The position numbers and the translations under genes are program-made. The notes under the pieces were generated by a model, which worked only from the letters and a program-made list of their open reading frames with translations, did not search any database and was not told the DNA's origin. A DNA stretch of 53,616 nucleotides from Cytophagales bacterium (lineage in GTDB: Bacteria; Bacteroidota; Bacteroidia; Cytophagales; CCMP332): the NCBI GenBank assembly GCA_028279065.1, contig JANQSY010000014.1, positions 1-53,616 on the forward strand. Reading direction: 5' to 3'. The stretch's first letter is position 1; every line of letters begins with the position of its first letter. This document shows, one piece after another, positions 6,439 to 27,720 of the stretch.

Positions 6439-6761
6439 GGCTAATAGGTTTGGTTACCATATAAGGTAGGAAACCCGTCGTCAGAAGTATGAGTTTAAGA
6501 ATTTTTTGAACGGTCAATTACGTGTTTTCTCGGCAATCTTGATCTAGCAATATTCGCATTTAGTATTGGCTAGTTTATAATTAAAATAGGCTTGTTCATA
6601 AACTGAGAGCCCCGTTTCATTGCTAATAATGCCTTGTTCACAAAATGGGCTCCGATTCTATCTCTGATTTGTCGTATTTAAAATTCTTAAAATCATACTT
6701 TCAGTTACCAAGAATAGTGGCTGTTGGGTATGATATTATTACTAACCCAAAACCATCTGAA
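6439..6761. other. Intergenic region before the fibre-protein pair
   Basis: About 320 bases with no gene supported on either strand. An ATG at 6645 in frame with the next gene would add 39 residues in front of a normal signal peptide, so I treat that part as leader. It holds the direct repeat listed at 6591-6644 and a TACTTTCA promoter-like box at about 6694. Confidence 0.4.
6591..6644 (+). repeat. Direct repeat upstream of the S74 fibre gene
   Basis: CTTGTTCATAAA (6591-6602) recurs as CTTGTTCACAAA (6633-6644), spaced exactly 42 bases (about four helical turns). Each copy is followed by a related G/C-rich tract. This suggests paired binding sites for a regulator of the downstream gene, or a short duplication. 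Confidence 0.35.
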
Positions 6762-8303: not shown

Positions 8304-8313
8304 ACAGAAAATC

Positions 8314-9894
8314 ATGAAAAAATTAATCTATAATTCATTAATCATGCGATTTATATTCAATCTAACGATCTGCTTATTATGCAGCATTGGCGCGATCAGC
8401 CAGGGAAATTTTGGTGACGCCGTGTGGGGAATTGGCGAGACAAACTTTGTCCCGACTCAGCAATTTGAGGTCAGGGCCGATGACGGGGGTGCGGTCAGGG
8501 AAAGGATAGCAAGATTCACCCTGGACTCAGGCGATACAAGCTCTGGCTATGATGTTTACAAGCATGATATGTTCGAAATCAGAAATTCCACCGGGGCCTT
8601 AAATACTATGGCACCTACCATCCATGGGCACAGGGAAACAACCAACGGAACTTCCTTTACCATAATTGGTAGTACTCATGCCGATCAGGATACCGGGGAC
8701 AAGGCCATAACCAATTTTATTTCGAGAACATATACAGACTTTCTGTATCAGATCACCACTGGTCCGGCAGGGGAGGATGAAGTTGAGAACAGGCCATTGT
8801 TCAGGTGGAGTAATAACTACACGACCTTGATGCAAATGGAGGCCAGTGGAAATCTCGGAATAGGTACCACAGGTGCGGTAAACGTTTTGGATGTAGAAGG
8901 AGGGGTGGCCATAGGATCGGGTTATGCAGGAACCAATACGGCCCCGACCAATGGCTTAATAGTTGAAGGAAATGTTGGCATTGGAACCAATTCGCCGGGT
9001 ACCAATACCAGATTCCATGCGGTTTCCGATGAAATAATTGACCAGGGCGATGATCATTTCTTTTTCGAAACAACCAGCGGTAGTGGAAACAATGATGGGA
9101 CGGTATTCAGGATCTACTCCAGAAGAGGCAGCGGCTTTACCAACGGCGATATTTTCAGGGTGGAAAACCAAAGCCTGACGGGGTCATCTGCAGCATTTAG
9201 AATCCGGGGTGATGGAAAAACCGGGGTTGGGTTGATTAATTCCGGCTATATATTCACCGTTAATGGGAGCGCTTTGGCCTTTGGTGGGTCATGGACTCCA
9301 TCGGATAAAAGGTTAAAAGAGAATATCCGTGTGATAACAGATCCTGTGGAGAAGCTTAAAGAACTGAGAGGTGTTCGATATGAATATCGGGAAACTGAAA
9401 AACTCCCAGTTGAAATGCATGGACAACCAAGTGTAGGCATCATCGCTCAAGAGGTAGAGCAGGTCTTTCCCGAATTGGTCAGGGAGTCCGATGGAATTAT
9501 GGCCGTGAACTATGATGGTTTAATCGGGCTTTTAATTGAGTCTCAGAAAGAACAGCAAGAGTCGTTAGAGGAACTTCTGTCTGAAATCTCCGAAATGGAG
9601 AATGAGCTGGCAAATGACATGGAAGCGGATTCCAAAGCCGGGAAGTTATATCAAAACAACCCTAACCCCTTTAGTTTCGAGTCCGAGATCCAGTACGAGA
9701 TCGTAAGAGACTATTCCAATGCATTTATCGGATTCTATGACCTTAACGGTATGGAAATAATGACCGTGCCTTTGCATTCGGCCAGGGGAGAAATAAAAAT
9801 AAATTCCTCTGACCTCGGAAGGGGACAATTTTTATACTCATTGGTTCTTGATGGAAGAATTATTGAAACAAAACGCTTGATGATAGGATACTAG
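8314..9894 (+). CDS. Fibre-like secreted protein with peptidase S74 chaperone domain and T9SS-type C-terminus (copy 2)
   Basis: 526 residues from ATG 8314. An alternative ATG at 8344 gives a shorter signal; an ATG at 8260 would lie inside the previous gene. The architecture is that of copy 1: signal peptide, beta-rich shaft with repeated GIGT turns, S74 domain with PSDKRLKENIRVI (Ser330 and Lys335 as the presumed dyad), QEVEQVFPELVRESDG and NYDGLIGLLIE. A short coiled-coil-like stretch (QKEQQESLEELLSEISEME) is absent from copy 1. A typical T9SS type A tail begins LYQNNPNPFSFESEIQYEI. The two copies share many blocks but are diverged, indicating an old tandem duplication kept in one transcript. 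A strong terminator follows. They are likely surface filaments or adhesins. Confidence 0.85.
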   Translation: MKKLIYNSLIMRFIFNLTICLLCSIGAISQGNFGDAVWGIGETNFVPTQQFEVRADDGGAVRERIARFTLDSGDTSSGYDVYKHDMFEIRNSTGALNTMAPTIHGHRETTNGTSFTIIGSTHADQDTGDKAITNFISRTYTDFLYQITTGPAGEDEVENRPLFRWSNNYTTLMQMEASGNLGIGTTGAVNVLDVEGGVAIGSGYAGTNTAPTNGLIVEGNVGIGTNSPGTNTRFHAVSDEIIDQGDDHFFFETTSGSGNNDGTVFRIYSRRGSGFTNGDIFRVENQSLTGSSAAFRIRGDGKTGVGLINSGYIFTVNGSALAFGGSWTPSDKRLKENIRVITDPVEKLKELRGVRYEYRETEKLPVEMHGQPSVGIIAQEVEQVFPELVRESDGIMAVNYDGLIGLLIESQKEQQESLEELLSEISEMENELANDMEADSKAGKLYQNNPNPFSFESEIQYEIVRDYSNAFIGFYDLNGMEIMTVPLHSARGEIKINSSDLGRGQFLYSLVLDGRIIETKRLMIGY

Positions 9895-12514: not shown

Positions 12515-12536
12515 AACTTGATCCGAATATTTGGGA

Positions 12537-15479
12537 ATGGCATGTAGGTTTAGATTTATAGGGGCTTTTTTTCTCCCGATATGTTGTTCACTCCTTTCCC
12601 TCGGAGTCAAAGGACAGCATTTCTCTCATAAGGTTTTTACGAAAGTTGATGGTTTGCCTACTGATGTCATTTATGACATCATCGAGGACGATCAGGGGTT
12701 TTTATGGATTGCTACCGGTTATGGCATTTCAAAATTCGATGGCTATTCTTTTTCAAACTATGGTGTCGATAATGGCTTAGCTGATATTGATGCTTTTGTG
12801 CTTCGTAAAGACCGATTTGGAAGAATATGGGTAATCGGTAATTCAAGCAGACTATCGGTTATAGAGAATGGCAAGGTTCGGCCTTATGAGTACAACCATA
12901 TTCTGGAAAAGCATCCGGCACTTTGTATTGATCTTTTTGTAGAATCTGACCGAACCCTCCATTACTCTACTACAGATGGCCAACTAATTATCAAGCCCGA
13001 CGGAAATTACCAACTGATCGATTCAACAGTTAACTATATAGGAATGAGGGTGGTTGAAACAGATGAGAAAAAGCCGTATATGAGCCAATACAGAATGGAG
13101 AAACCCCCCAGACCTAGGGGGCCTAAGGTTGTTCGGTTCTGTTTTGAGGGAAAATGTCATAGAACCAATAGTACAATTGGACATTATGGGAGAAAGATCT
13201 TGATGCTCAATGATACCAACTGGGTCTTCAATGTAACGGAGGATTCTCTGGCCCTTGTCACTAAGGAAGGAATTTTTCCATACGCGAAGCTGGAAGCTGA
13301 GATTCAGTGCCTTTTGCTAATCGATGGAGAAATATGGGTTGGAACGGCAGACGGAATTGAAGTTCTTTCCATAGGCCAGGGCTTCAAAATCACTGGGTCG
13401 AGGACAATTTACAGGAACCAATCTTTTTCCAGCATATACTGGGATGTCCGCAAGGGTGTATGGTGTTCCACACTAAATCATGGGTTGATCTATATTCCTC
13501 AGCTAAAGTTCAGGTCCTTTTCGAAAACCGACGGACTTCCATTTGATTTGATTACGGCAATAGAACTCGACAAAAATGGAAGGATTTTTCTTGGGGGTGA
13601 AAACGGGGACCTGGCCGTATTAGAAAAAGATGGAACAAGTTTTCTGCTTCCTGATGTTTTGGTTTACAAAAAGCGAATACGAGATCTTTTTTTGTCGTCC
13701 AATGGAGACATATATTTTGATGCATATCAATCCCTGGTTTACAGAATTGATCCCTCTCTAAATATTTTCAAGATTCCTCTCTCAAAAACAGAACCCAAAC
13801 GGACACTTAAATATATTTCGGAAAATAGGGGAAATATTTATACAAGCACAGGAAAAGGAATCGCAAAAATTATTAATGATAAAATAGAAAAACAATCTGG
13901 AAAGAATTATATAAGGGTAACCGCTTTTTGCAATCGGGATGATTCGGTATTTTATATGGCAACCCTTGATGGGATTATTTGTTTTAATCAAAATTCCAAG
14001 CGTAGCTGGAATCCTTTTCCATATTTCAATCAAAGATCTACCCATATTCAAAGATTTGATGACAAGTCATTCCTGTTCACCTCAGATGGAGCCGGACTCT
14101 TTTTTATTTACAATGATACTATTATCAATATTGGAAGAGCGCAGGGACTGAAAAAGCTTTTTTTCCAAAAAGCAAGGGTTAGCGGGAATACAGTTTGGGG
14201 AATCACCAAGCAGGGTTTGACCAAGCTTAAAATCAATAGCATTGATCCGCTGAACTTTAACTTCGAGGAATTCGACTTCAGGGATGGTTTGGGGTATGGT
14301 AGATTCTTTGATCTAAAATTGGTGGATTCTACTGTTTTTTTGGCAAGTACAAAGGGATTAATTGTGTTTAATGAAAGGGATGCCCAATTTAATCTTGACC
14401 CTCCGAAAATAGTTCTCACAAAGGTATTGTTGGATGGACGTGAAATTCCATCAATTGATTCAGTCATTTCTTTTCAAGGCACATCCACTATTGAGTTCAA
14501 CTTCACAGGGTTGAATTTTATCAGCGGAGGGGATTTTTTATACAAGTATAGACTGAGCGGATTGGATGAAAATTGGTCCTACACTAAAGGAAGACAAATT
14601 CAATTCTATTCACTCCCTGCGGGCAAATATGATTTCCGGGTTGCTGCCAGGGATCATAAGGATGTATGGTCAAAGGACCTGGCTAGCTTCAGCTTTCAGG
14701 TTTTTCCTCCTTTTTGGAAAACCTGGTGGTTTTATGTACTGGAAGCCTTGCTTGGTTCCCTGATCATCTTTTCCCTTGTTAATTGGAGGATCCGTTATTT
14801 ACATGGTGTAGAGGTAAAAAAGGAAAAAGAAGAAAGGGAAAAGGCTCAATTAGAGTTGGATGCCCTTAAGCATCAAATGAACCCCCATTTTCTTTTCAAC
14901 ACCCTGAATTCGATCCAGGCCTTTGTGAGTTCAAGTGACAGGGGTGAGGCGGTCAGGTACTTGTCACGTTTTTCCAGATTGATCAGAAGAAACCTTGAGC
15001 ATTCAAAGGATACCAATGTGTCTCTAAAGGAGGAAATAGATTTTTTGCAGATCTACCTTGACCTTGAGCGAATGAGGTTTGATGATGCTTTTGATTATGA
15101 AATTAAGTTGGACGGGATCCGCGGTATAGATCGTATCAGGATCCCGAATTTAATAGTTCAGCCTTATGTTGAAAATGCAATTCTACACGGGATGAACAAT
15201 CTTAAAAGAAAGGGGTATATCAAGGTTGAATTTAGCTTTGATGATGATATGCTCAAATGCGTGGTAGAGGATAATGGAGTGGGTCGGAGCAAAGAAAAGG
15301 AAGACAAAGGAAAGGGAGAAAGGGAGCATAGATCGGTTGGAATGACCATAACTCAAAGAAGGCTTAAACTTTTGAACTCTAAGATTGTAAATCCAAAGGT
15401 AAAGGTCATTGATCTGGTCAAAAATGGAATGCCCAGTGGCACAAGAATTGAAATTATAATGCCTTATTTGGTAGATTAG
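12537..15479 (+). CDS. Sensor histidine kinase, Reg_prop/Y_Y_Y/LytS type (kinase 1)
   Basis: 980 residues from ATG 12537 (a TTG at 12531 is in frame). A signal peptide leads into a long periplasmic sensor of Reg_prop beta-propeller repeats (first one GLPTDVIYDIIEDDQGFLWI; others near LRKDRFGRIWVIG and WVGTADGIEVL). A Y_Y_Y domain follows (YKYRLSGLDENWSYTKGRQI, then LPAGKYDFRVAARD), then one membrane span near residue 725-750 (WWFYVLEALLGSLIIFSLVN) and a LytS-type cytoplasmic kinase. QMNPHFLFNTLNSIQAF carries the presumed phospho-acceptor His784, and NLIVQPYVENAILHG plus VVEDNGVGRSKEK are the ATP-binding N and G boxes. The nearest response regulator is the LytTR gene at 21504, so the three kinases probably share it. 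Ligand unknown; relatives in gut Bacteroides sense glycan fragments. Confidence 0.9.
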   Translation: MACRFRFIGAFFLPICCSLLSLGVKGQHFSHKVFTKVDGLPTDVIYDIIEDDQGFLWIATGYGISKFDGYSFSNYGVDNGLADIDAFVLRKDRFGRIWVIGNSSRLSVIENGKVRPYEYNHILEKHPALCIDLFVESDRTLHYSTTDGQLIIKPDGNYQLIDSTVNYIGMRVVETDEKKPYMSQYRMEKPPRPRGPKVVRFCFEGKCHRTNSTIGHYGRKILMLNDTNWVFNVTEDSLALVTKEGIFPYAKLEAEIQCLLLIDGEIWVGTADGIEVLSIGQGFKITGSRTIYRNQSFSSIYWDVRKGVWCSTLNHGLIYIPQLKFRSFSKTDGLPFDLITAIELDKNGRIFLGGENGDLAVLEKDGTSFLLPDVLVYKKRIRDLFLSSNGDIYFDAYQSLVYRIDPSLNIFKIPLSKTEPKRTLKYISENRGNIYTSTGKGIAKIINDKIEKQSGKNYIRVTAFCNRDDSVFYMATLDGIICFNQNSKRSWNPFPYFNQRSTHIQRFDDKSFLFTSDGAGLFFIYNDTIINIGRAQGLKKLFFQKARVSGNTVWGITKQGLTKLKINSIDPLNFNFEEFDFRDGLGYGRFFDLKLVDSTVFLASTKGLIVFNERDAQFNLDPPKIVLTKVLLDGREIPSIDSVISFQGTSTIEFNFTGLNFISGGDFLYKYRLSGLDENWSYTKGRQIQFYSLPAGKYDFRVAARDHKDVWSKDLASFSFQVFPPFWKTWWFYVLEALLGSLIIFSLVNWRIRYLHGVEVKKEKEEREKAQLELDALKHQMNPHFLFNTLNSIQAFVSSSDRGEAVRYLSRFSRLIRRNLEHSKDTNVSLKEEIDFLQIYLDLERMRFDDAFDYEIKLDGIRGIDRIRIPNLIVQPYVENAILHGMNNLKRKGYIKVEFSFDDDMLKCVVEDNGVGRSKEKEDKGKGEREHRSVGMTITQRRLKLLNSKIVNPKVKVIDLVKNGMPSGTRIEIIMPYLVD

Positions 15480-15511
15480 GATTCATTGTTTTATTCGAAA
15501 TAATTGATTTC

Positions 15512-18457
15512 ATGGGCATGATTACCCGGTTCAAGCTAGTTTTCAGATCCTTTTTCTTGTTTGTTTTTTTTCTGATTTCCACTTTCGGAATCGGGCAGCA
15601 TTATCCGCATAAGGTTTTCACCAAAATAGATGGACTGCCAACCGAGGTCATTTATGATATGGTTGAGGATGATCAGGGATTTTTATGGATTGCAACAGGT
15701 TATGGTATTTCAAAATATGATGGTTATTCCTTTACTAACTATGGTATCGACCAGGGCTTAGCTGACATTGATGCTTTTGTGCTTCGCAAAGACCGTTTTG
15801 GAAGGATCTGGGTAATCGGCAATTCCAGCAGGCTGTCAATCCTGGAAAACGGAAGGATATATCCTTTTGAGTTCAACAATATACTGGAAGATCTTAAAGT
15901 GATCTGTATTGATCTTTTCATTGACAAGGATAATACCCTCCACTATTCAAGCGCAGTGGGCGAAATAATCATTAAGAGTAATGGGGAATATAGAATCATA
16001 GATTCCGTAGATGCTCCGGTTAACCTACAGGTACACCAAACCGATGAAGGCAATCCTTATGTCCGGCAGTATAGAGCATTTACTCCCGGAAGACCAAGGA
16101 AGCACCCGATCAGATTCTGTTTGGCCGGAAAGTGTCAGACCACAATTACTTCAATTGGAAGCCTGGGAAGGGTCGCATTAAAAATTCTGAATGATAATTG
16201 GGTAGTTAATATAGGCTCGGACACACTGGCCATGATCTCGGCTAATGGAATATTTCCTTTTGCCAAGCTTGAATCGGAAATTCGATGCTTGTCAATTATC
16301 GAAAATGATATCTGGGTTGGGACGGCTAATGGAATAAGGGTTATTTCAATTGATGATAACTGCAAAATAACAAACGCAAGAACCATTTACAGGAACAGAT
16401 CTTTTTCCAGAATATACCAGGATGGCTGGGGTGGGGTTTGGTGTTCTACCATAAACCATGGAATGATCTATATCCCCCAGCTTAAGGTCAAACTTTTTTC
16501 TACAGAGGATGGTCTTTCATTTGATCTGGTATCCGCGGTTCAACCTGATAAACAGGGGAGGATTTTTTTAGGCGGAGAAAATGGAGAAATATCGGTTCTG
16601 GAGCCTGATGGAAACAGCTATCTTCTCCCAAATATGCTAAGGAACAAAAGGAGGATAAGGGATTTTTTTCTCATGTCCAATGGGGATATTTATTTTGATG
16701 CATACCAGTCTGAGGTTTACCGAATTGACTCCAAACTATCAATTCATAGAATGGAACAACCAAAAACCGGCCCCTTTTCTACCATAAAATATATTCATGA
16801 AAGCGATGGAGAGCTATTCGGCGGCACCGCAAGGGGTATTGCTTCAATAGTTGGGAAGGATGTGATCAGGCCAAAAGCCCCAAACCAGTTTCGGTTGACT
16901 TCCTTCTGTAGTAAAAATGACTCGGTTTTTTATATGTCCACCCTTGATGGGATCACATGCTTTAATATTAATAGCGAAAGCCATTGGGATCCCTTTCCGG
17001 AATTTAATCAAAGGGCAACTCATATTTTGAAGATCAGTGATATGGATTATGTTTTTTCTACTGATGGAAAGGGAATTTTCTTTATTCATAATGACAGCTT
17101 GATCAATATTGGAAAGGATCAAGGACTCAAGAAGTTGTTTTTTCAAAAGCTTATGGTGAATGGCAAAACCATTTGGGGGATTACAAAGCATGGATTGACC
17201 AAATTTGAGATCAATAGCCTGGATCCGCTGGACTTCACCTTTGAGGAATATGACTATAAGGATGGTTTGGGTTACGGACGCCTGCTGGATCTGGAACTTG
17301 GTGACTCCTGCATCTATTTGGCAAGCACTGAGGGGTTGATCGTTTTTAATGAAAAGGATGCACAGCTGAACCTGGAACCTCCAAATATCATTCTAAACAA
17401 AGTGTTGGTGAATGGGCTGGAGATTGATCCAAAGGACTCTATGTGCACTGTTCAGGGATCCTCAAATATCGAGTTTAATTTTACCGGTTTGAATTTCGTG
17501 AGCGGGGGAGATATGCTTTACAGGTATAAGCTTGAGGGATTGCATACCGATTGGTCGTTCACCAAGGGAAGGCAGCTCCAGTACAATACCCTTGGACCGG
17601 GAAAGTATAGATTTTTGGTGGCAGCCCGGGATCACAAAGAGGTTTGGTCCCGGGAGCTGGCGAGTTTTGGATTTCAAGTATTCCCTCCCTTTTGGCAAAC
17701 CTGGTGGTTCTATGTACTGGAAGCCTTGCTTGGTTCCCTGATCATCTTTTCCCTTGTGAATTGGAGGATCCGTTATTTACATGGTGTTGAGGTAAAAAAG
17801 GAAAAAGAAGAAAGGGAAAAGGCTCAACTGGAATTGGATGCCCTAAAGCATCAAATGAACCCCCATTTTCTGTTCAACACCCTGAACTCGATCCAGGCCT
17901 TTGTGAGTTCAAGCGACAAGGGTGAGGCGGTCAGGTACTTATCACGTTTTTCCAGATTGATCAGAAGAAACCTTGAGCATTCGAAGGATACCAATGTGTC
18001 TCTAAAGGAGGAAATAGATTTTTTGCAGATCTACCTTGACCTTGAGCGAATGAGGTTTGACAATGCTTTTGATTATGAAATTGGGGTGGATGGGATCCAG
18101 GGTATGGATAGCATCCGGATCCCGAATCTAATAGTTCAGCCTTATGTTGAAAATGCCGTTCTGCATGGGATGAACAATCTGAAAAGAAAGGGTCATATAA
18201 AAGTTGATTTCAGCTTTGAGGATGATATGCTCAAATGCGTAGTGGAAGACAATGGGGTAGGGCGCAGCAAGGAAAAAGAAGAGAAGGGAAAAGAGGGCAG
18301 GGAAAACAGATCTGTGGGAATGACCATCACCCAAAGAAGACTTAAGTTGTTGAATGCCAGAATCGTAAACCCCAAGGTGCAGGTCATCGATCTTTTTGAG
18401 AATGGCAATCCCTGCGGTACCCGGATTGAGATCGTTATGCCCTATCTAATTGAATAA
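15512..18457 (+). CDS. Sensor histidine kinase, Reg_prop/Y_Y_Y/LytS type (kinase 2)
   Basis: 981 residues, 32 bp downstream of kinase 1 and its closest paralogue, with the same order: signal peptide, Reg_prop propeller (GLPTEVIYDMVEDDQGFLWI), Y_Y_Y (YRYKLEGLHTDWSFTKGRQL), one span, LytS kinase with QMNPHFLFNTLNSIQAF (His785), NLIVQPYVENAVLHG and VVEDNGVGRSKEK. The sensor is clearly diverged from kinase 1, whereas about 400 bp from the span through the phospho-acceptor helix (about 17690-18088) is nearly identical at DNA level, including silent sites. That contrast points to gene conversion or very recent recombination. An ATG at 15518 is an equally possible start. Kinases 1 and 2 may form homo- or heterodimers through the shared segment; that is inference. 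Confidence 0.9.
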   Translation: MGMITRFKLVFRSFFLFVFFLISTFGIGQHYPHKVFTKIDGLPTEVIYDMVEDDQGFLWIATGYGISKYDGYSFTNYGIDQGLADIDAFVLRKDRFGRIWVIGNSSRLSILENGRIYPFEFNNILEDLKVICIDLFIDKDNTLHYSSAVGEIIIKSNGEYRIIDSVDAPVNLQVHQTDEGNPYVRQYRAFTPGRPRKHPIRFCLAGKCQTTITSIGSLGRVALKILNDNWVVNIGSDTLAMISANGIFPFAKLESEIRCLSIIENDIWVGTANGIRVISIDDNCKITNARTIYRNRSFSRIYQDGWGGVWCSTINHGMIYIPQLKVKLFSTEDGLSFDLVSAVQPDKQGRIFLGGENGEISVLEPDGNSYLLPNMLRNKRRIRDFFLMSNGDIYFDAYQSEVYRIDSKLSIHRMEQPKTGPFSTIKYIHESDGELFGGTARGIASIVGKDVIRPKAPNQFRLTSFCSKNDSVFYMSTLDGITCFNINSESHWDPFPEFNQRATHILKISDMDYVFSTDGKGIFFIHNDSLINIGKDQGLKKLFFQKLMVNGKTIWGITKHGLTKFEINSLDPLDFTFEEYDYKDGLGYGRLLDLELGDSCIYLASTEGLIVFNEKDAQLNLEPPNIILNKVLVNGLEIDPKDSMCTVQGSSNIEFNFTGLNFVSGGDMLYRYKLEGLHTDWSFTKGRQLQYNTLGPGKYRFLVAARDHKEVWSRELASFGFQVFPPFWQTWWFYVLEALLGSLIIFSLVNWRIRYLHGVEVKKEKEEREKAQLELDALKHQMNPHFLFNTLNSIQAFVSSSDKGEAVRYLSRFSRLIRRNLEHSKDTNVSLKEEIDFLQIYLDLERMRFDNAFDYEIGVDGIQGMDSIRIPNLIVQPYVENAVLHGMNNLKRKGHIKVDFSFEDDMLKCVVEDNGVGRSKEKEEKGKEGRENRSVGMTITQRRLKLLNARIVNPKVQVIDLFENGNPCGTRIEIVMPYLIE

Positions 18458-18479
18458 GTTGGTCACCTTTGAGGATCCA

Positions 18480-18511
18480 TTTCGATGTAGCCAGAATTTC
18501 TTTTATATTCG
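18480..18511 (+). promoter_or_regulatory. Possible promoter for kinase 3 and the regulator
   Basis: TTTCG (18480-18484) and TATATTCG (18504-18511) are separated by 19 bp, close to the TTTG-N19-21-TAnnTTTG pattern with one mismatch in each box. The ATG follows 22 bp later. The 76 bp gap before kinase 3 is larger than the gap between kinases 1 and 2. Confidence 0.33.
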
Positions 18512-18533
18512 ATAGTGGGACAAATGAAAAAAC

Positions 18534-21494
18534 ATGACATGTCCTTCTATAAACCTTTTGAGACGACTTTATATTCAAGGCTTTCTATTGATCTTTTGGT
18601 CCCTTCAGGTCCATGGACAACATAAGGCCTATCGACAGTTTACTGTTGAAGATGGGTTAGCCAGCAATGTTGTTTATGATGTAGTTTCTGATGAAAGTGG
18701 TGTTCTTTGGTTTGCTACAAATTCCGGGGTTTCAAGGTATGATGGGTATGAGTTTGTGAATTATTATCAAGAAAATGGCCTTGCGGATATTGAAAACTTT
18801 GAGTTTAGAAAGGATGGTTTTAATCGAATATGGCTTATGGGCTATTCAAATCAACTTTCAACTATCCAAAACGATGTTATAGCTCCCTACCAATTCAATC
18901 ACTATTTGGTGTCCAGACTTTCGAAAAGGTCCCTTCCTGTAGATTTATTTGTGGACCAGAGTAATATTTTCTATTCAACAAAGACTGGGATTTTTTTGAT
19001 TGATGATAATGGTGAGATATCTCCACATTCCTTTAATAATTATAGATCAAATGAATATTCTCTGATTGACTTGGGGGGAGATAATTTGTTTAGAGAATTT
19101 CCTGGAAAAGTTGATTTAAATCAACGGCCTTTTAGAATAAGGGTTATTTTTGATTCTTCTGATAGGTATTTTAATGACCATTATAATCGACCTGGAAGGC
19201 AGTCTGCTCGTTTAAACGCGAATTGCTGGGTGGTGCAAAAAAATCTTAAGGATATTTTTTGTATTTGTAAGGACACTTCATATTCGTTCTATGAGGGAAA
19301 TTCTGATATTTTAAGATTGAAAAGGATTGGAAATTCACTTTTCATTGGAACTAGAAATGGCTTTTTGGAACTAACACTGAATAACAATGAATTGTCAGAG
19401 GTTTCGGATGTTCTTTTTAGAAATTATTCAATAACAGGAATAGAAGAAGACTTTCAAGGGGGAATTTGGATCACGACTCTTTTTAATGGAGTTTTTTATT
19501 TTCCGAATAATGGATTAAAGTTTTTGGTGAGTAATTCCTCGGCAAATATGGAACCTATTACCTGCATCGAAGGAAATAATTCTTCTATTCTAGCAGGAGG
19601 AAAGTCTGGTAAGATTTATTCTTGGAGGGAAGGGTCTGGGTTAGTTAATGTTCCTTATTATACTAATCAAAAACAGGTTAAAGACATAATTGCCGACTCA
19701 GATGGTGGATATTATTTTTCCTCCTATGGAGATCAGGTTTTTTATTTAAACACTCATGGAGAAGTTATTAATTTTTCTCCTTTAGGATTTTCAAAGTTCA
19801 TTTTACCTAGGGTTTCATTTAATGAATTAGATTTTTTTAATGATAGCATATTTGCCTATGGACCAGGAGGGGTTTTTTTGTTGGGAAGTTCACAATACCC
19901 TTACCTTACAAAATTCAAAAATATAGACTCTGTTAAAGTATTGGATTTTATTATAACCGAAAAAGGCGATTTTTTAATTGCTAGTTTGGAAGGTGTATTA
20001 ATTTGCAAAAGTGGTAGTGATGAAATATTGTGGTTATTTGAATATGTTCAAAAGCTAAAGGGTAGAATTAACAAGATTGAGAAGGTCTTCGATAATTATT
20101 ATATTTTTTTTACGAGCCATTATGGACCTGTTATGTTAAAATATGGTAATTGGAGGGAGTTGCCACTTCAACTAGAGAGTAAATACAAAAATGCTACTTC
20201 GGCAGAAACTTTTGATGATATTCTATTAATTGGGGGAAATTGGGGAGTTGATTTATTTAGGTTTGATACCTCAGGAATTCAACTGCCTTTTGCTAGAATT
20301 GACCATAATAATGGTTTGCTGGGCAATCAGGTATTGGATTTAAAGGTTCAAGAACAAATGCTGTTTATAGGTACGAGGAAGGGTGTTTGTGTGGTTGATC
20401 TAAAGAAGTATCTCTCTTTGACCCAGCCCCCAAAAGTGTTTTGGAAAAAGGTAAATGGTTTTCCCTTTTCTGAAGGAACTAAATATGAATTTCCTTTTTC
20501 GCAAAACCGCCTTGAATTGAGTTTTGATTGTTTGGACTTCAGAAATAGTCGATCTTTATCCTTTTTTTACGCGATACCAAAGCTTTTTTCCGATACACTT
20601 CAACTTTTATCAAACAATGTTTCATTGGCAAATCTGAAAGCGGGTAAGTATGATCTTTATCTGTTTGTTAATGGGAAAATTGACAATGAAAACCTTGTGA
20701 AGCTGCAGTTTTCTTTTTCAATATCTCCCCCTTTCTGGCAAACGTGGTGGTTTTATTTGTTGGAGTTTTTGTTGCTTTCCGGATTGATCTTGAGTATAAT
20801 TCAATGGAGGGGAAGAGTATTGAGGGAGAGAACTATTAAAGCAGAATTCGCGAAACGGGAAAAACTTGATCTGGAGATCAGGGCTCTGAGAAATTTGATC
20901 AATCCTCATTTTTTGTTTAACACCCTTAACTCCATACAGGCGTTTGTAATCGATAAGGATTCGGTCTCGGCGGCCAAGTACCTCTCAAGTTTTTCAAGGC
21001 TTGTACGCAGGACCTTTGGTCAGGCAAGGGAGGCTTCCGTCACTCTTGCCGAGGAGGAAAAGTATCTGGATGAATACATTGGCCTTGAACAGCTGAGGTT
21101 TGACTTTGGGTTTTCCTATTCCGTTAAACTCAAAAATATCGATGAGCCGGAGATGATTCGGATGCCTTCGATGCTGGTGCAGCCCTTTGTGGAAAACTCT
21201 ATTCTTCATGGGGTTGCAAACCTAGAAGAAAAGGGGAAGATTGAGATCGAATTTGAGCTCATAAATCAGACCTTGAAATGTACTATCCAGGATAACGGCA
21301 TAGGCAGGAAAGCAGCGTCCAGGCTAAAAAAAGGACCTGTAGAAAGTCATAAATCCCTTGGGACATCCATTACCTTTAAAAGACTTGAGATGTACAACAA
21401 TAGGAGGGGTACTGTCCCTTATAAGGTCATCGATCTTGAGGAGAACGGAAAACCATTGGGAACAAGAGTTGAATTGTATATTGATGTATTATAG
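18534..21494 (+). CDS. Sensor histidine kinase, Reg_prop/LytS type, diverged (kinase 3)
   Basis: 986 residues with the same plan as kinases 1 and 2 but distant in sequence and more AT-rich in its sensor half. A signal peptide (IQGFLLIFWSLQVHGQ) precedes Reg_prop repeats (GLASNVVYDVVSDESGVLWF, then GLADIENFEFRKDGFNRIWL). The propeller is degenerate, and the Y_Y_Y region is weak: FSFSISPPFWQTWWFYLLEF marks its end and the membrane span near residue 735. The kinase has NLINPHFLFNTLNSIQAF with presumed phospho-acceptor His792, MLVQPFVENSILHG (N box) and IQDNGIGRKAASR (G box). Stop TAG 21494 is 9 bp before the response regulator, so this kinase is its direct operon partner. Kinases 1 and 2 may feed the same regulator. 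Confidence 0.88.
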   Translation: MTCPSINLLRRLYIQGFLLIFWSLQVHGQHKAYRQFTVEDGLASNVVYDVVSDESGVLWFATNSGVSRYDGYEFVNYYQENGLADIENFEFRKDGFNRIWLMGYSNQLSTIQNDVIAPYQFNHYLVSRLSKRSLPVDLFVDQSNIFYSTKTGIFLIDDNGEISPHSFNNYRSNEYSLIDLGGDNLFREFPGKVDLNQRPFRIRVIFDSSDRYFNDHYNRPGRQSARLNANCWVVQKNLKDIFCICKDTSYSFYEGNSDILRLKRIGNSLFIGTRNGFLELTLNNNELSEVSDVLFRNYSITGIEEDFQGGIWITTLFNGVFYFPNNGLKFLVSNSSANMEPITCIEGNNSSILAGGKSGKIYSWREGSGLVNVPYYTNQKQVKDIIADSDGGYYFSSYGDQVFYLNTHGEVINFSPLGFSKFILPRVSFNELDFFNDSIFAYGPGGVFLLGSSQYPYLTKFKNIDSVKVLDFIITEKGDFLIASLEGVLICKSGSDEILWLFEYVQKLKGRINKIEKVFDNYYIFFTSHYGPVMLKYGNWRELPLQLESKYKNATSAETFDDILLIGGNWGVDLFRFDTSGIQLPFARIDHNNGLLGNQVLDLKVQEQMLFIGTRKGVCVVDLKKYLSLTQPPKVFWKKVNGFPFSEGTKYEFPFSQNRLELSFDCLDFRNSRSLSFFYAIPKLFSDTLQLLSNNVSLANLKAGKYDLYLFVNGKIDNENLVKLQFSFSISPPFWQTWWFYLLEFLLLSGLILSIIQWRGRVLRERTIKAEFAKREKLDLEIRALRNLINPHFLFNTLNSIQAFVIDKDSVSAAKYLSSFSRLVRRTFGQAREASVTLAEEEKYLDEYIGLEQLRFDFGFSYSVKLKNIDEPEMIRMPSMLVQPFVENSILHGVANLEEKGKIEIEFELINQTLKCTIQDNGIGRKAASRLKKGPVESHKSLGTSITFKRLEMYNNRRGTVPYKVIDLEENGKPLGTRVELYIDVL

Positions 21495-21503
21495 ATTTTA
21501 GAC

Positions 21504-22262
21504 ATGAAAATTGATGTATTAATAATTGATGATGAGTCAAGGGCAAGGGATGGTCTGAAGAATCAGTTAGAGGTTCTCGGAAATCCGGTAAATATTCTGG
21601 CTGAAGGGGGTTCTGTTGCCGAAGGGTACGAGTTGATAAAAAAACATAAACCCGACCTTGTCTTTTTGGATATCGAAATGACCGATGGGAATGGTTTTGA
21701 CCTGTTACGTCAGATTGGAGAGATTGATTTTATCGTGGTTTTTGTGACGGCCTTTGATCAATATGCCATCCAGGCCATAAAGTTCTCAGCCCTGGACTAT
21801 TTGTTGAAACCCCTGGACCCTGATGAACTGGATGAAGTGCTCAAAAAAGCATACGAAAGTTTTGACCAGAAAGAGAATGCGAAAAAAGTCCAAAACCTCC
21901 TGGTTAACTCTGAACTGGAAAATCCCAATGACCGGAAATTGGCTATAAAATGTGTCGATTCAATAAAATATCTGAGAATTGATGATATAAGTCATTTTGT
22001 TGCCGATGGTAGCTATACCAAGATCTGCATGAAAGACGGGAAGAGTATCCTGGCATCCAAAATGCTGAAATACTTTGAACAGACCCTATCGGATTTTTCC
22101 CAGTTCCTGAGGATCCATCGCTCATCTATGGTAAATCTTAAATATGTTGAGGAATATCAGTACAGCTCTGGGGGTTCAGTACTGATGGTGACAGGCCAAA
22201 ATCTTTATCCTTCCGAGGATAGAAAGAAAAAGCTCCTCAACAAACTGAACCAACTAAATTGA
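21504..22262 (+). CDS. LytTR-family response regulator
   Basis: 252 residues. The receiver domain (1-120) has the acidic pocket Asp9/Asp10, phospho-acceptor Asp56 in LVFLDIEM, Thr82 in FVTAF and Lys102 in YLLKPL. Residues about 145-250 form a LytTR DNA-binding domain (IKYLRIDDISHFVADGSYTK; FLRIHRSSMVNLKYVEEY). It is the only regulator among three LytS-type kinases and follows kinase 3 by 9 bp. LytTR proteins bind paired direct repeats upstream of their targets, and the cassette starting at 22319 is the obvious candidate, but no clean paired site was seen in the 56 bp between. All receiver residues are present, so it should be functional. Confidence 0.95.
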   Translation: MKIDVLIIDDESRARDGLKNQLEVLGNPVNILAEGGSVAEGYELIKKHKPDLVFLDIEMTDGNGFDLLRQIGEIDFIVVFVTAFDQYAIQAIKFSALDYLLKPLDPDELDEVLKKAYESFDQKENAKKVQNLLVNSELENPNDRKLAIKCVDSIKYLRIDDISHFVADGSYTKICMKDGKSILASKMLKYFEQTLSDFSQFLRIHRSSMVNLKYVEEYQYSSGGSVLMVTGQNLYPSEDRKKKLLNKLNQLN

Positions 22263-22318
22263 AATAATTGGTGTTTTTGGCTTAGGCCATTCAAAAGATC
22301 GCCTTATTTGTCCTTGGC

Positions 22319-23287
22319 ATGAGCTTGAAAATGAGTTTTCTGTTCAGGGCGGTATTGTTTCTTTCGCCGTTGGTTTCTGCAGTCGGCTCAGGTGATTTCC
22401 ATGCCAATGAATATTTCATTTCCCATAGTTCTTTTAAGACCGCAGAGCCAAAAATCGAAGCTGATTCAATTCTAATTCCCTTGAAGAGGATCGGTAAGCT
22501 ATTTTTTGTTGATGCTCAGGTGGATGGGCAATCTGGCAATTTCCTTTTAGATCTGGGAGCCGTCAATTTGGTTCTCAACAAGACCTATTTCAGAAATTCA
22601 TACTCTGACCAGCGATCATCATCGGGTGGAGTGAGTGGATCAGAGCTGGGCTCGGAGAAGACTATGATCCAAAGCCTGAACATTCAAGGCTTGTCCTTTT
22701 CTGATCTTGAAGCCGAGGTTTTTAACCTTGGTAATATCGAGAACAAGACCGGGATCAAGATACTGGGCCTTTTAGGATCAAATCTCTTTAAGACTGTTGA
22801 GATCGTTATTGATACTCGAAAACTGCAACTCAAGATCTTTCCGTTGAATAAGGCGGGTAGATCAGCTCGGAGAGTTGAAAAAAATGAGATCCAAATCCCT
22901 TTCAGAACCGTTAATAACGTATTGCTCGTAAACGGAGAAGTTTCAGGGAAGAAGCTTCTTTTTTCCTTTGACACAGGGGCTGAAGTGAATGTTTTGGATA
23001 AGCAGAACCATCCGAAAGTCTTGGAAAGCGTAATCATCAGAAAAAGGGTCCTGCTTAGAGGTTTAGGTGGAGAACCCACTGAGGTCCTTGTCGGAAATTT
23101 GCCTGAATTAGAAATTGGTTCCTCTGTTTTCAAGGACATGAATACCATAATTGCAGACCTTTCAAGCATGAGCGCTAATTATGGGATCAGGATTGATGGC
23201 ATGTTGGGATATGATTTTTTTTCGAAAGGCGTCCTGGTGATCAATATGGAGACCAAGGTAATGGCCATAAATTTGTATAAGAAATGA
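22319..23287 (+). CDS. Secreted two-lobed retropepsin-like aspartic protease
   Basis: 322 residues. A signal peptide is followed by two homologous lobes. Lobe 1 has FLLDLGAVNLVL (Asp78-Leu-Gly) and a closing ILGLLGSNLFKTVEIVID; lobe 2 has LLFSFDTGAEVNVLD (Asp218-Thr-Gly) and a closing GMLGYDFFSKGVLVIN. These are the D-[TS]-G-A and L-G-x-[DN]-[FL][FL] marks of retropepsin-like proteases. Normally two such lobes pair to form one active site; here both aspartates remain, but lobe 1 has Leu in place of Thr/Ser beside the Asp, so activity may be weak or lost. The stop overlaps the start of the next gene by 4 bp (ATGA). It may process or bind a surface partner encoded by the downstream genes. The gap to the regulator is 56 bp and contains a TTATTTG box at about 22304. 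Confidence 0.8.
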   Translation: MSLKMSFLFRAVLFLSPLVSAVGSGDFHANEYFISHSSFKTAEPKIEADSILIPLKRIGKLFFVDAQVDGQSGNFLLDLGAVNLVLNKTYFRNSYSDQRSSSGGVSGSELGSEKTMIQSLNIQGLSFSDLEAEVFNLGNIENKTGIKILGLLGSNLFKTVEIVIDTRKLQLKIFPLNKAGRSARRVEKNEIQIPFRTVNNVLLVNGEVSGKKLLFSFDTGAEVNVLDKQNHPKVLESVIIRKRVLLRGLGGEPTEVLVGNLPELEIGSSVFKDMNTIIADLSSMSANYGIRIDGMLGYDFFSKGVLVINMETKVMAINLYKK

Positions 23288-24741
23288 GGCCCTTTATCGT
23301 CATTGGTATTGTATTTCTACTCTTCTGTTTTTACCTCAGGACCGAAGCTCAGTCATTGGAACTAAAGATCCTGAATGACCAGGTTTACGCAATTATCGAT
23401 CTCAGTATGGATGATGAAATCATGGACAGTCTGCTTTTCGATCTCGGCCTCGACAGTTCTGAAATAGCCCAGTTAAAACAAGGCCCCGAGAAGGGAAGAG
23501 AAGTCGGAAACTGGACCTGTGTTTCCTCAGAACGAGGAGAGATCCAATTAAAAAGACCATTGGATGAGCTTACAGGGAAATTGGATAGGAATGAGGTGAT
23601 CTTTCTTGACGACAAACCAATTGATGTTAAACCTTCAAGCTATTGGTATCAGGATGTAGGATATGGGGTCAATAGCTTCAAAAAAATCCAGTCGGTCAAG
23701 GAATTGGAAAATGGAAAAACAAGGTTTTTCCTGCTTGGGCATTTTAGAAAAAACGAGGCCTATATAGCCGGTAATTTTAATGGTTGGAGCACCATTGGAA
23801 CCCCCCTTAATAAAACCGACTCCGGCTGGCATGTAGATCTCAAAATTCCCTATGGGAAAACAGTCTACAAATTTGTGGTAGATGGGGACTGGCTTTTGGA
23901 TCCCCTGAACCGACAATCGCAAAAAGATGAAAACGGCCTTGTTAATTCCGTTTATTTTAAGCCCAACTACTCTTTCACTCTGGGTGGGCATGAATCAGCC
24001 AAGAAGGTCTTTGTGGCGGGAGATTTTAATCAATGGAGGGATAAAGAGTTGCCCTTGATCTATGAAAAAGGTCAATGGAGGCTTCCCATTTATCTTCGGG
24101 AGGGCACCTACGGCTATAAATTCATAGTTGATGATAATTGGATACTTGATCCTAAAAACCCCTTGTCAAGACCCGATGGTGTTGGAAATCTTAATTCGTG
24201 GTTTTCATTCGGGGATACCATCTTTTTTATCCTGAAGGGTAATAAAAATGCAGACCGCGTCAATGTGGCAGGCAACTTTAATGACTGGAATTCCGTAGAG
24301 CTTTCGATGATCAAAACAGACTCTGGTTGGGTCTTGCCCTACGTGCTACCTGATGGAAATTGGGAATACAAATTCATTGTTGACGGCGCATGGATAACAG
24401 ACCCTGAAAATCGCGTCACGACGGGTGTAGGTGATTTCAGGAATTCGATTTTGTCTGTTGGAAAGAATTATACTTTCCGTCTGAACGGCTTTCAGGATGC
24501 CGGAAGAGTGATCTGTACCGGGAGCTTTAATAACTGGAATAATAATGGATACAAAATGGCCAGAAAAGATGGACATTGGGAGATCTCGCTTTTCATGAGA
24601 CCGGGTAAGCATACTTATAAGTTTCTTGTTGATGGGGAATGGGTCCTTGACCCAGGAAATCCACTTTGGGAACAAAATGAGTTTGGTACCGGGAATTCTG
24701 TCCTATGGCTGGATGCCAGGACTTTGATGGGTGTTGAGTAA
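23284..24741 (+). CDS. Secreted protein with four glycogen-binding (CBM48/AMPK-type) modules
   Basis: 485 residues. An N-terminal signal (MRPFIVIGIVFLLFCFYLRTEA) and a unique region of about 130 residues precede four tandem modules of about 80-85 residues. Each has a core such as AYIAGNFNGWSTIGTPLNK, VFVAGDFNQWRDKELPL, VNVAGNFNDWNSVELSM or VICTGSFNNWNNNGYKM, then a partner strand YKF[VIL]VDG.W[LIV].DP.N. That is the AMPK beta/CBM48 glycogen-binding fold, which binds alpha-glucans. Such modules usually sit on enzymes; here no catalytic domain is visible, so the protein may be a binder or scaffold. The start overlaps the upstream protease stop (ATGA), and the stop overlaps the next start (TAATG), so translation is coupled. 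Confidence 0.88.
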   Translation: MRPFIVIGIVFLLFCFYLRTEAQSLELKILNDQVYAIIDLSMDDEIMDSLLFDLGLDSSEIAQLKQGPEKGREVGNWTCVSSERGEIQLKRPLDELTGKLDRNEVIFLDDKPIDVKPSSYWYQDVGYGVNSFKKIQSVKELENGKTRFFLLGHFRKNEAYIAGNFNGWSTIGTPLNKTDSGWHVDLKIPYGKTVYKFVVDGDWLLDPLNRQSQKDENGLVNSVYFKPNYSFTLGGHESAKKVFVAGDFNQWRDKELPLIYEKGQWRLPIYLREGTYGYKFIVDDNWILDPKNPLSRPDGVGNLNSWFSFGDTIFFILKGNKNADRVNVAGNFNDWNSVELSMIKTDSGWVLPYVLPDGNWEYKFIVDGAWITDPENRVTTGVGDFRNSILSVGKNYTFRLNGFQDAGRVICTGSFNNWNNNGYKMARKDGHWEISLFMRPGKHTYKFLVDGEWVLDPGNPLWEQNEFGTGNSVLWLDARTLMGVE

Positions 24742-25445
24742 TGCGTATCATTCTTATGGTCTCCCTTTTGATTTCAATAGGTCTTGGAAACTCCATAGGT
24801 CAAAAGAATTCCATTGTAATTTCGGTTGGCGCTGGATTTCCCTGGGGGCATCTGAGCGATATGCAGGTCGTAAAAGACAATACTTCTCCTGAACCCGGTC
24901 CCATAATTGGGATTTCCTACATTCGCGAATTTTGGAAAGGTGGTGGACCAATGATCTCTTTTTCGGCAAGTAATTATGCCATTGACCAAACAGAGCTGAT
25001 CGAATTGGATCAAATGGATCCTTCCTTTACCATCATCGAGTCCCTCTCAGAAAATTGGAGGAACATGGCCATTTTGGTTGGGTTATCTCAAAAAATTGAA
25101 ATAGGAAGATCCAAAAAGATCGCTATTGGTTTTTCCGGGCAAATTGGGTTCTTTTTTGCCAACACTATTGATTTTTCCTACCTGGATGAATTGAATAGCA
25201 ACAGCCAGCAAATTGTCAGCTTTTCTGGAAATACATCAATCTCTTTTGCTGCTGATCTTGGAACTTATTTTGACTACAAATTTGGGTCTGGAGTTTCAGC
25301 AAGGTTGATGATTGGGTACAGAATTGGTGGTGCGACCAATGAGATCCAAACCCTGGATCTTCCACAGGGTATCAATAAATTCTATTCGGAGGATATAACA
25401 GTTCAGGCTATCAATCTCCAAATTGGATTATGTTATAAATTTTGA
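24741..25445 (+). CDS. Outer-membrane beta-barrel protein
   Basis: 234 residues. The signal peptide MRIILMVSLLISIGLGNSIG is followed by about eight to ten alternating beta strands with aromatic girdles, ending with INLQIGLCYKF, whose C-terminal Phe is the mark of BAM-inserted barrels. It matches the small porin-like barrels common in Bacteroidota (outer membrane beta-barrel domain). The start codon shares a base with the previous stop (TAATG). It may be the outer-membrane anchor for the CBM48 repeat protein or the protease; that is inferred from position only. No homologue-level name is possible. Confidence 0.75.
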   Translation: MRIILMVSLLISIGLGNSIGQKNSIVISVGAGFPWGHLSDMQVVKDNTSPEPGPIIGISYIREFWKGGGPMISFSASNYAIDQTELIELDQMDPSFTIIESLSENWRNMAILVGLSQKIEIGRSKKIAIGFSGQIGFFFANTIDFSYLDELNSNSQQIVSFSGNTSISFAADLGTYFDYKFGSGVSARLMIGYRIGGATNEIQTLDLPQGINKFYSEDITVQAINLQIGLCYKF

Positions 25446-25479
25446 CCGTCCATTAAAGATCAAATTAAGACGTATCAGG

Positions 25480-26055
25480 ATGAACAAGATATTGTTATGC
25501 TTTGCTTTGGTCCTTTCCGGACTGTCCTCATATTCCCAACCATGCGAATACGAGATCAAAGAAATAGATGATTTCATGGGATCCAAAAGGATCTCAACAG
25601 CTCCACAAACCGTTTGGTCGGATGAGAATGAAGCGCTTGTTTTCGTCCTGAGTAACGACAATGGAAAAAAGGCTCTTGAAATGGTCCATATGAAAAGAGA
25701 CTCACAAATGATGTGCTTTGATGAAGGCTCCAGGATCGAGATAATTCTTGAGAATGGGGAGGTGGTTACTCTGGAAAATGTCTCCGGTCCGGAATGCGCC
25801 GATGGGATCTATTCCGACCTGCACAAAACGATGGAGCATTTTTTAGGAGCTGGTTTTCAAATTGAACAAAAAGAAGAAGAGATCTTAAAAGCTTACCCGA
25901 TAAAGGAGATCAAGGTTTTCTTTGAAGTACCTGGATTCGATGATTATAAATTGCCAGAAAAGGTAAGATTACATGAACAAGGGTTTGATCTCTTCGGTAA
26001 GCAGGACTTTCAAGCTCATAAGTATTTTGTTTTGACCCTTCCCTGCATTGATTAG
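25480..26055 (+). CDS. Small exported hypothetical protein
   Basis: 191 residues from ATG 25480, chosen because MNKILLCFALVLSGLSSYSQ is a signal peptide; a start at 25423 would sit inside the barrel gene. The mature protein has a few spaced cysteines (after PCEYEI, near MMCFDEG, PECADG and the final LPCID) that could form disulfides. No family is recognised. It sits 34 bp after the barrel gene and is the last member of the cassette: a -7 box for accA follows. It could be a small periplasmic partner of the cassette. Confidence that it is a gene is high; its role is unknown. Confidence 0.65.
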   Translation: MNKILLCFALVLSGLSSYSQPCEYEIKEIDDFMGSKRISTAPQTVWSDENEALVFVLSNDNGKKALEMVHMKRDSQMMCFDEGSRIEIILENGEVVTLENVSGPECADGIYSDLHKTMEHFLGAGFQIEQKEEEILKAYPIKEIKVFFEVPGFDDYKLPEKVRLHEQGFDLFGKQDFQAHKYFVLTLPCID

Positions 26056-26098: not shown

Positions 26099-27043
26099 AT
26101 GCATCTTGAATTTGAAAAACCAATTGCAGAACTTGAAGCCAAGCTTCAGGAAATGGTCCAGGTTGCTGGAGATAACAAAGTTGACGTAGGGAAGGCAGCT
26201 AAAGACCTTGAGAATAAAATAAAGAAACTGAAAAAAGAAACCTATTCTAATCTCACCCGGTGGCAACGGGTGCAGCTGTCAAGGCATCCGGACAGGCCAT
26301 ATACCCTTGATTATATCTACAACATGGTAGACAATTTTGTTGAACTCCATGGCGATAGGGTTGTATCAGATGACAAGGCCATGGTCGGAGGTTTGGGTGA
26401 GATCAGCGGCAGGACAGTAATGTGCATAGGCCAACAAAAGGGGAGGAATACCAAACAAAGACAGGAGAGAAACTTTGGTATGGCCAATCCTGAGGGTTAC
26501 AGGAAAGCACTGAGGTTGATGAAACTGGCTGAGAAATTTAACAAGCCTGTGGTATGTTTCATTGATACTCCCGGAGCATTTCCAGGACTTGAGGCGGAGG
26601 AAAGGGGCCAAGGTGAAGCAATCGCCAGAAACCTCTTCGAAATGGCAAAACTTGAAGTGCCCATTATCTGCATCATCATTGGGGAAGGGGCCTCAGGAGG
26701 TGCACTTGGAATTGGTGTCGGGGACAGAGTTATTATGCTTGAGAACACCTGGTATTCAGTGATTTCTCCGGAATCCTGCTCCTCGATACTATGGAGATCC
26801 TGGGAGTATAAGGAGCAAGCAGCCGAAGCTCTGAAGCTTACAGCTGAAGACATGAAGGGATTTGGGCTTGTTGATCAGATCGTTCCCGAACCCCTAGGTG
26901 GGGCCCATGTTGATCCCAAATTGATGTACAGCCGGGTGAAAAAATGCATCCTTGAAGAACTGGTTGGTCTTGACAAGCTAAAGCCAGATGAACTTGTCAA
27001 TAAGCGGATCGACAAGTTCTCAAAAATGGGCGTTGTAGCTTGA
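26099..27043 (+). CDS. accA: Acetyl-CoA carboxylase carboxyltransferase subunit alpha
   Basis: 314 residues (E. coli AccA has 319). With AccD it forms the carboxyltransferase that moves CO2 from biotin to acetyl-CoA to make malonyl-CoA, the first step of fatty-acid synthesis. The N-terminus is helical ([15 protein letters not shown]), then [20 protein letters not shown]. The crotonase-fold core shows [20 protein letters not shown] preceded by [13 protein letters not shown], whose Gly-Gly peptides form the oxyanion hole, and [20 protein letters not shown]. The family is cytoplasmic and essential. The next gene's TTG start overlaps its stop, and a promoter lies upstream. No accD is seen in the window. 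Confidence 0.97.
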
Positions 27044-27720
27044 AATTAAACCTGAGCGCTGCCTTTTCCGGAATCGACTGGAAGAACCACTTCATCGAAC
27101 TGATCACTGTGATCATCGGGATCACCATAGCCTTTTCGCTGAATAACTGGAATGAGGGAAGAAAGGATCGCACCCAGGAAAAGGCTTACCTAAAAGCACT
27201 TTCGGTTGAATTGGAAAAAGACCAAAACCTTCTAAAAAGCCTTCTCGATACCAGTTCTTACTTCTTGGGACGAACCGAAAATTTGTTGGCTAACTTGAGT
27301 GAAGAAGAATTCTTAGAAGACTCTTTGGCCCTATATCTATCAAGCACTTATTCTTTTGCTTCTTTCAAACCAAACAATAACACCTTCGAAGGTCTGAAAA
27401 CCTCCGGAAAGATTGGTTTGATCGAAGATTTCGAATTGAGGCAAAAGATCATCCACCATTATAATCAGAATTATGGGGAGTGCATGAATTTTGATGATTT
27501 TTATAAAACCTTTCTTGAGAGCCAATTAATGCCTATTATACTTAAGAATGTAGATTTCAGGAGTTTTCCCCAGATAGGGAATTCGGAATTCACTCAAAAT
27601 GTTTATTTCATCAATCTCATGTATTCTTCTCAATATTACCAGGCTACAAGAATTCAGATCTATCAGGAGGCGTTAGATCATTGTGAAACACTAATAGCCG
27701 AATTAAGACCATACCTATAA
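27040..27720 (+). CDS. DUF6090-family membrane-anchored protein
   Basis: 226 residues. A TTG start at 27040 overlaps the accA TGA (TTGA). One N-terminal transmembrane helix lies at about 15-35 ([21 protein letters not shown]), ending in the INNWNE-like mark of the DUF6090 family. A long charged helical region follows ([20 protein letters not shown]), then a mixed C-terminal half. Bacteroidota genomes carry many such proteins of unknown role, often in paralogous arrays. The helical part probably faces the periplasm. There is no catalytic motif. Its coupling to accA may be an accident of gene order. Confidence 0.7.

Follow-up and report, generated by a model that had tools for sequence, protein, structure and literature searches.

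In the window, the whole stretch of 53,616 nucleotides of Cytophagales DNA that was analysed, the locus probably consists of two units joined in this species: a genus-specific sensor cluster, and a two-gene module encoding a predicted exported aspartic protease (ASP) and a predicted exported protein with four glycogen-binding-type modules (CBM). We are highly confident that ASP and CBM form a functional unit, and consider it very probable that this unit is, in general, independent of the kinases. Here the pair sits between the regulator gene and the barrel gene of the sensor cluster, which adjoins accA, and it may be co-transcribed and locally co-regulated with the sensor genes. The genes are collected in Table 1. 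The open reading frames and Pfam matches agree with the gene inventory and positions of an earlier note on this DNA, which had listed three kinases, a regulator, a protease, a four-module binder and a small exported protein.

Table 1. Genes of the locus, with positions in the window
Gene	Product	Position	Strand	Basis and remarks
HK1	Reg_prop/Y_Y_Y/LytS-type sensor kinase, 982 aa	12531..15479	+	Pfam His_kinase 5e-25, Y_Y_Y 6e-14, Reg_prop 7e-13; tandem duplicate of HK2 (69% aa)
HK2	Reg_prop/Y_Y_Y/LytS-type sensor kinase, 981 aa	15512..18457	+	Pfam
HK3	Reg_prop/LytS-type sensor kinase, 986 aa	18534..21494	+	Pfam; tree (groups with the regulator-adjoining kinase of G002)
RR	REC + LytTR response regulator	21504..22262	+	Pfam; G002 regulator at the same site, 62% identity
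ASP	Exported two-lobed pepsin-like aspartic protease (predicted)	22319..23287	+	Pfam PF13650; AlphaFold model; VIA Z
CBM	Exported protein (predicted), small N-terminal alpha/beta domain and four AMPK-type CBM48 modules	23284..24741	+	Pfam AMPK1_CBM x4; model; W/K/W/N ligands
BAR	Exported 234-aa protein, probable small outer-membrane barrel	24741..25445	+	28% identical to the G002 protein directly after the regulator; genus-limited among 148 genomes
SML	Small exported protein, 191 aa	25480..26055	+	G002 protein after the barrel, 69-72% identity
accA		starts 26099		After SML; G002 accA, 90% identity

The genes of the locus are closely packed. HK1 starts either with TTG at 12531 or with ATG at 12537, the spacing is 9 bp between HK3 and RR and 56 bp between RR and ASP, and the CBM and BAR genes overlap by 1 nt (TAATG). 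The ASP and CBM genes overlap by 4 nt (ATGA) and are apparently translationally coupled. Pfam and NCBIfam gave nothing above cut-off for BAR and SML, and the barrel nature of BAR is probable from its sequence pattern. Among the Pfam-profiled genes at 6.6-34 kb of the window there is no SusC/D pair or glycoside hydrolase, as the earlier note had observed, and this region thereby lacks the SusC/SusD pair with carbohydrate-active enzymes that marks a PUL. Upstream, at 6645-9894, two Peptidase_S74 (endosialidase chaperone) genes follow one another with overlapping ORFs; they encode 552 and 544 aa, and the product of the first matches Por_Secre_tail weakly.

How constant is the pairing across the Bacteroidota? 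In a class sample of 395 genomes, with both genes required at E<=1e-15, 20 genomes besides the window carry ASP and CBM, and in all 20 the two genes are adjacent and on the same strand. The gap between them ranges from -101 to +4 nt, the larger overlaps reflecting automatic start calls. Moreover, a scan of genome contigs with the protease alignment gave 189 candidate relatives, from which 80 loci were kept, belonging to Mucilaginibacter, Chitinophagaceae, Cyclobacteriaceae, Saprospiraceae, Rufibacter, Flavobacteriales MAGs and others. By an automatic test, CBM directly follows ASP in 77 of these loci. Two of the three exceptions end at a contig edge (42 and 282 bases left); in the third (L137:5060-5760, from a MAG) a binder lies immediately downstream of the protease and contains a single in-frame stop, which makes it a possible pseudogene or assembly error. 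The evidence for the pairing is one of genetic adjacency: because the two genes are kept side by side, usually with an overlap of a few bases, while their surroundings change, the pair very probably has a joint function. With these counts, the coupling of the protease to a glycogen-type binder, pointed out in the earlier note, is borne out. The protease family extends beyond the pair: a weaker protease relative, with no binder match, is present in eight genomes of the class.

The surroundings of the pair were compared over the 93 distinct loci left after seven duplicates had been removed. Common to them are ASP (93) and CBM (91) only, and the next neighbour, a PhzF-like gene, is present in 34; PhzF-like, SMC-like, sigma-factor-like and MBL-fold neighbours recur mainly within Mucilaginibacter. 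A search of the 93 loci for a third partner gene that recurs found none, nor was an alpha-glucan enzyme recognised as a recurrent neighbour in them. The MBL-fold gene downstream in the window was considered as a partner and set aside as a coincidence, because the only other genome of the genus in the comparison (G002) carries the MBL gene without the pair. A kinase of Reg_prop size is absent from the 80 scanned loci. One locus, L108 of genome G483, has a Reg_prop-type kinase and a LytTR-type regulator near the pair; both lie upstream of it (L108:4110-7725), with two opposite-strand genes between, and this locus leaves room for a rare kinase association of the pair. In L113, L114, L116, L117 and L118, opposite-strand exopolysaccharide-like genes adjoin the pair, and by eye their N-termini are dTDP-rhamnose epimerase-like, glycosyltransferase-like and chain-length regulator-like. 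These neighbours possibly hint that, in that lineage, the pair is linked to an envelope glycan.

The sensor cluster has the opposite distribution. The family comparison comprised two further genomes, including G002, in which the order on one contig (G002:C87) is kinase, kinase, regulator, barrel, small protein, accA, MBL-fold, patatin and urocanase-like. This is the order of the window minus ASP, CBM and a DUF6090 gene, and with two kinases instead of three. The G002 regulator and barrel are about 240 bp apart, and tblastn on this contig found no remnant of ASP, CBM or the DUF6090 gene; the G002 assembly has 470 contigs and is 93% complete, although the site lies intact within a single contig. 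The DUF6090 gene lies at 27040-27720 of the window, between accA and the MBL-fold gene, and its absence there in G002 is a second presence/absence difference nearby. In the order sample of 148 genomes, BAR is confined to the window genome and G002, SML is found in the same two plus one marginal match (E 5e-5), and genome contigs scanned with BAR as the query yielded zero relatives. Judged from gene order and distribution, BAR and SML belong with the kinases and the regulator, within this genus only. The earlier note had placed the barrel with the kinases and also with the pair: the first placement holds within the genus, given the G002 order, and the second fails, since G002 has the barrel without the pair. 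ASP and CBM are side by side in none of the other genomes of the order sample; one (G140) has distant homologues of both on separate contigs, unpaired.

These distributions bear on the alternative that the locus is a single, self-contained system sensing alpha-glucan or the envelope, in which the kinases sense and the protease, binder and barrel are output or sensor partners. The local arrangement invites it: all genes share a strand, the gaps from HK3 to the barrel are at most 56 bp, two junctions overlap, and co-transcription is plausible. However, G002 has the cluster without the pair, and about 90 other loci have the pair without such kinases. Protease and binder are thus found apart from the kinases in most lineages, the pattern that the earlier note had held to speak against its own proposal of one sensing system comprising kinases, regulator, protease, binder and barrel. 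That proposal has to be given up in this form, and we consider a single system very improbable. Upstream of 22319 there is no match to the promoter motif of Bacteroidota, TTTG-N-TANNTTTG, which is no commoner than expected by chance. If two units have been joined, how did the pair reach the cluster? Horizontal gain in the window species appears more likely than ancestral loss. A FastTree tree of the concatenated pair places the window with two MAGs, one of Flavobacteriales and one of Owenweeksia (0.92), and then with L108 and L109 (0.94), FastTree local support being the sole measure of placement. This grouping, together with the side-by-side occurrence in this genome only among the 148 of the order, argues against a pair that is ancestral to the genus and was lost from G002. 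Base composition fits such an ancestral pair, as its GC and third-position GC equal those of the surroundings and carry no foreign signal; we nevertheless regard ancestry with loss as unlikely.

Next, we consider the sensor cluster itself. HK1, HK2 and HK3 each match Reg_prop and His_kinase in Pfam, Y_Y_Y is present in HK1 and HK2 only, and HATPase_c is weak in all three. With Pfam matches above cut-off in the three kinases and the regulator, and the same couple in G002, the genes encode a Reg_prop/LytS-LytTR two-component system. Its sensor and transmitter domains are like those of the Reg_prop/Y_Y_Y and LytS/LytTR systems of Bacteroidota, but a SusC/D pair or glycoside hydrolase is not adjacent, and the kinase and the regulator are separate proteins. 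In the kinase tree, the first G002 kinase falls with HK1/HK2, the second with HK3; two kinases are therefore the probable ancestral state of the cluster, and HK1/HK2 would have arisen later by tandem duplication. Between HK1 and HK2, the DNA of codons ~721-880 (window ~14691-15170 in HK1 and ~17672-18151 in HK2) is 89-97% identical, with third-position identity of 0.80-0.93, whereas the sensor parts mostly have 47-82% DNA identity per 40-codon block. Because the identity changes abruptly along the genes, the transmitter region, with the membrane anchor and the phospho-acceptor, was likely homogenised by recent gene conversion while the sensors diverged. We infer that HK1 and HK2 must both keep addressing the single regulator. 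Two kinds of periplasmic propeller sensor would then report to one LytTR regulator, and BAR and SML are likely to be either local targets or accessory proteins of the envelope.

What kind of protease is ASP? Pfam finds two Asp_protease_2 stretches (E 1e-16), and each lobe matches the retropepsin-type models PF13650 and PF13975. The catalytic motifs are DLG at aa 78-80 in lobe 1 and DTG at aa 218-220 in lobe 2. The catalytic Asp is present in lobe 1 of 100 of the 101 homologues, the exception being a truncated ORF, and in lobe 2 of all 101. Lobe 1 reads DTGA in 96 of them and DLG in the window and L108, while lobe 2 is without the glycine in 18. Because of the DLG in lobe 1 here and the missing lobe-2 glycine in those homologues, the activity of ASP cannot be assumed. 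The AlphaFold model (42 sequences) is of high confidence, with a mean pLDDT of 88. By Foldseek and VIA-align, its first match is 9iy9 (Z 22.1, 269 residues, rmsd 3.8), a Bacteroides fragilis protein described as a putative endopeptidase ("Exported protein"). This structure, also the best PDB profile match, shares with ASP the two-lobed bacterial aspartic-protease fold and export, but it is 14% identical and its chain is about 100 residues longer. Pepsins, rhizopuspepsin and renin follow with VIA-align Z of about 17 over both lobes, and the model superposes on pepsins over residues ~46-321, with one Asp per lobe, as in the two-lobed A1-type fold. Members of pepsin family A1 (1pso, 3app and 2apr) likewise have a single chain and two lobes with one catalytic Asp each, although the identity is 12-14% and the ASP lobes match retropepsin-type Pfam models. 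Since the model matches 9iy9 and the pepsins over both lobes, ASP is, on this prediction and despite the Pfam names, a single-chain two-lobed pepsin-like protein and not a retropepsin-type homodimer.

Bacterial aspartic peptidases with partner genes have a precedent. The retropepsin-like Rlo proteases and RimB of Pseudomonas are clan AA aspartic peptidases encoded in operons with partner genes, for an inactive transglutaminase membrane protein and an ATP-grasp protein, and Rlo is exported (PMC12239564). ASP resembles them as a bacterial clan AA aspartic peptidase with a partner gene, but differs in its predicted glucan-binder partner and in its two lobes in one chain as opposed to the homodimer described for retropepsins (PMC12239564).

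The partner, CBM, has four AMPK1_CBM stretches (Pfam, E 4e-55), and its model (pLDDT 89, pTM 0.72) shows a small N-terminal alpha/beta domain followed by four CBM48 folds. The AMPK beta CBM (1z0n and 4yee) superposes at about 1.3-2 angstrom over ~85 residues. From the alignment and the residues with which AMPK holds glycogen, we take the ligand positions to be those of W100, K126, W133 and N150 of AMPK beta1, and these W/K/W/N residues are present in all four modules of the window protein. Ligand residues were counted over 86 full-length homologues, 12 others having shorter or truncated binders. Those of module 1 (W168/K196/W203/N221) are kept in 85-86 and those of module 4 in 77-85 of the 86. 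Modules 2 and 3 keep them less well, with K or R at the K position in 76 and 74, respectively. The modules are thus of the CBM48/AMPK type in fold and in mostly kept ligand residues, and alpha-glucan binding by them is plausible. In contrast to the AMPK beta CBM, four such modules stand in tandem here, in an exported protein with no catalytic domain. Against the T9SS plug protein model NF052315, the CBM modules score 32 bits, below the cut-off of 100. A PorZ match was likewise weak and below its cut-off.

How might the pair work? Both proteins have hydrophobic, export-type N-termini, and on that N-terminal hydrophobicity we infer that they act outside the cytoplasm. ASP and CBM would be made together and exported, and CBM would attach there to alpha-(1,4)-glucan, be it storage, capsular or food-derived. 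ASP may then act together with CBM, either by processing it or because CBM keeps the protease close to substrates at the glucan, so that CBM could be a substrate, an anchor or an inhibitor of the protease. Our tentative proposal is that CBM places or restrains ASP at alpha-glucan. By extension, and with the same reserve, the pair may represent an undescribed two-protein proteolytic system of Bacteroidota, in which a co-translated alpha-glucan binder directs or gates an exported pepsin-like protease. A literature search, in which subscription journals were mostly outside the scope, found no paper in which an aspartic protease has a CBM48 or glycogen-binding protein as its partner.

The pair could also work without glucan, the modules serving as an E-set scaffold for folding, anchoring or inhibiting the protease, in the manner of a chaperone or inhibitor pair. 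The strict 1:1 coupling, the order of protease and then binder, the weak module match to the T9SS plug protein model and the lack of any recognised glucan enzyme nearby are in keeping with this. However, in modules 1 and 4 the four AMPK ligand positions rank with the most strongly conserved residues, which a scaffold as such would not require, and we judge a scaffold to be an unlikely explanation. A different doubt concerns the protease: with DLG in lobe 1 of the window and of L108, ASP of this species might be a pseudo-enzyme whose DLG lobe does not cleave, and the pair would then act by binding only. The retention of the Asp in both lobes and the DTGA in lobe 1 of nearly all homologues argue against this, and we rate it as improbable.

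Grouping the pair with the neighbouring sensor kinases was tempting but wrong, and the comparison corrects it. The conservation of the pair from Mucilaginibacter to Chitinophagaceae, Cyclobacteriaceae, Saprospiraceae and Flavobacteriales MAGs is strong evidence for a joint function. Knowledge of bacterial pepsin-like proteases is sparse, and exported proteins that consist of CBM48 modules only are not known to have an assigned role; the pairing provides each of the two with a partner. If glucan-directed action of the protease is true, it would mean proteolysis at, or in response to, extracytoplasmic alpha-glucan.
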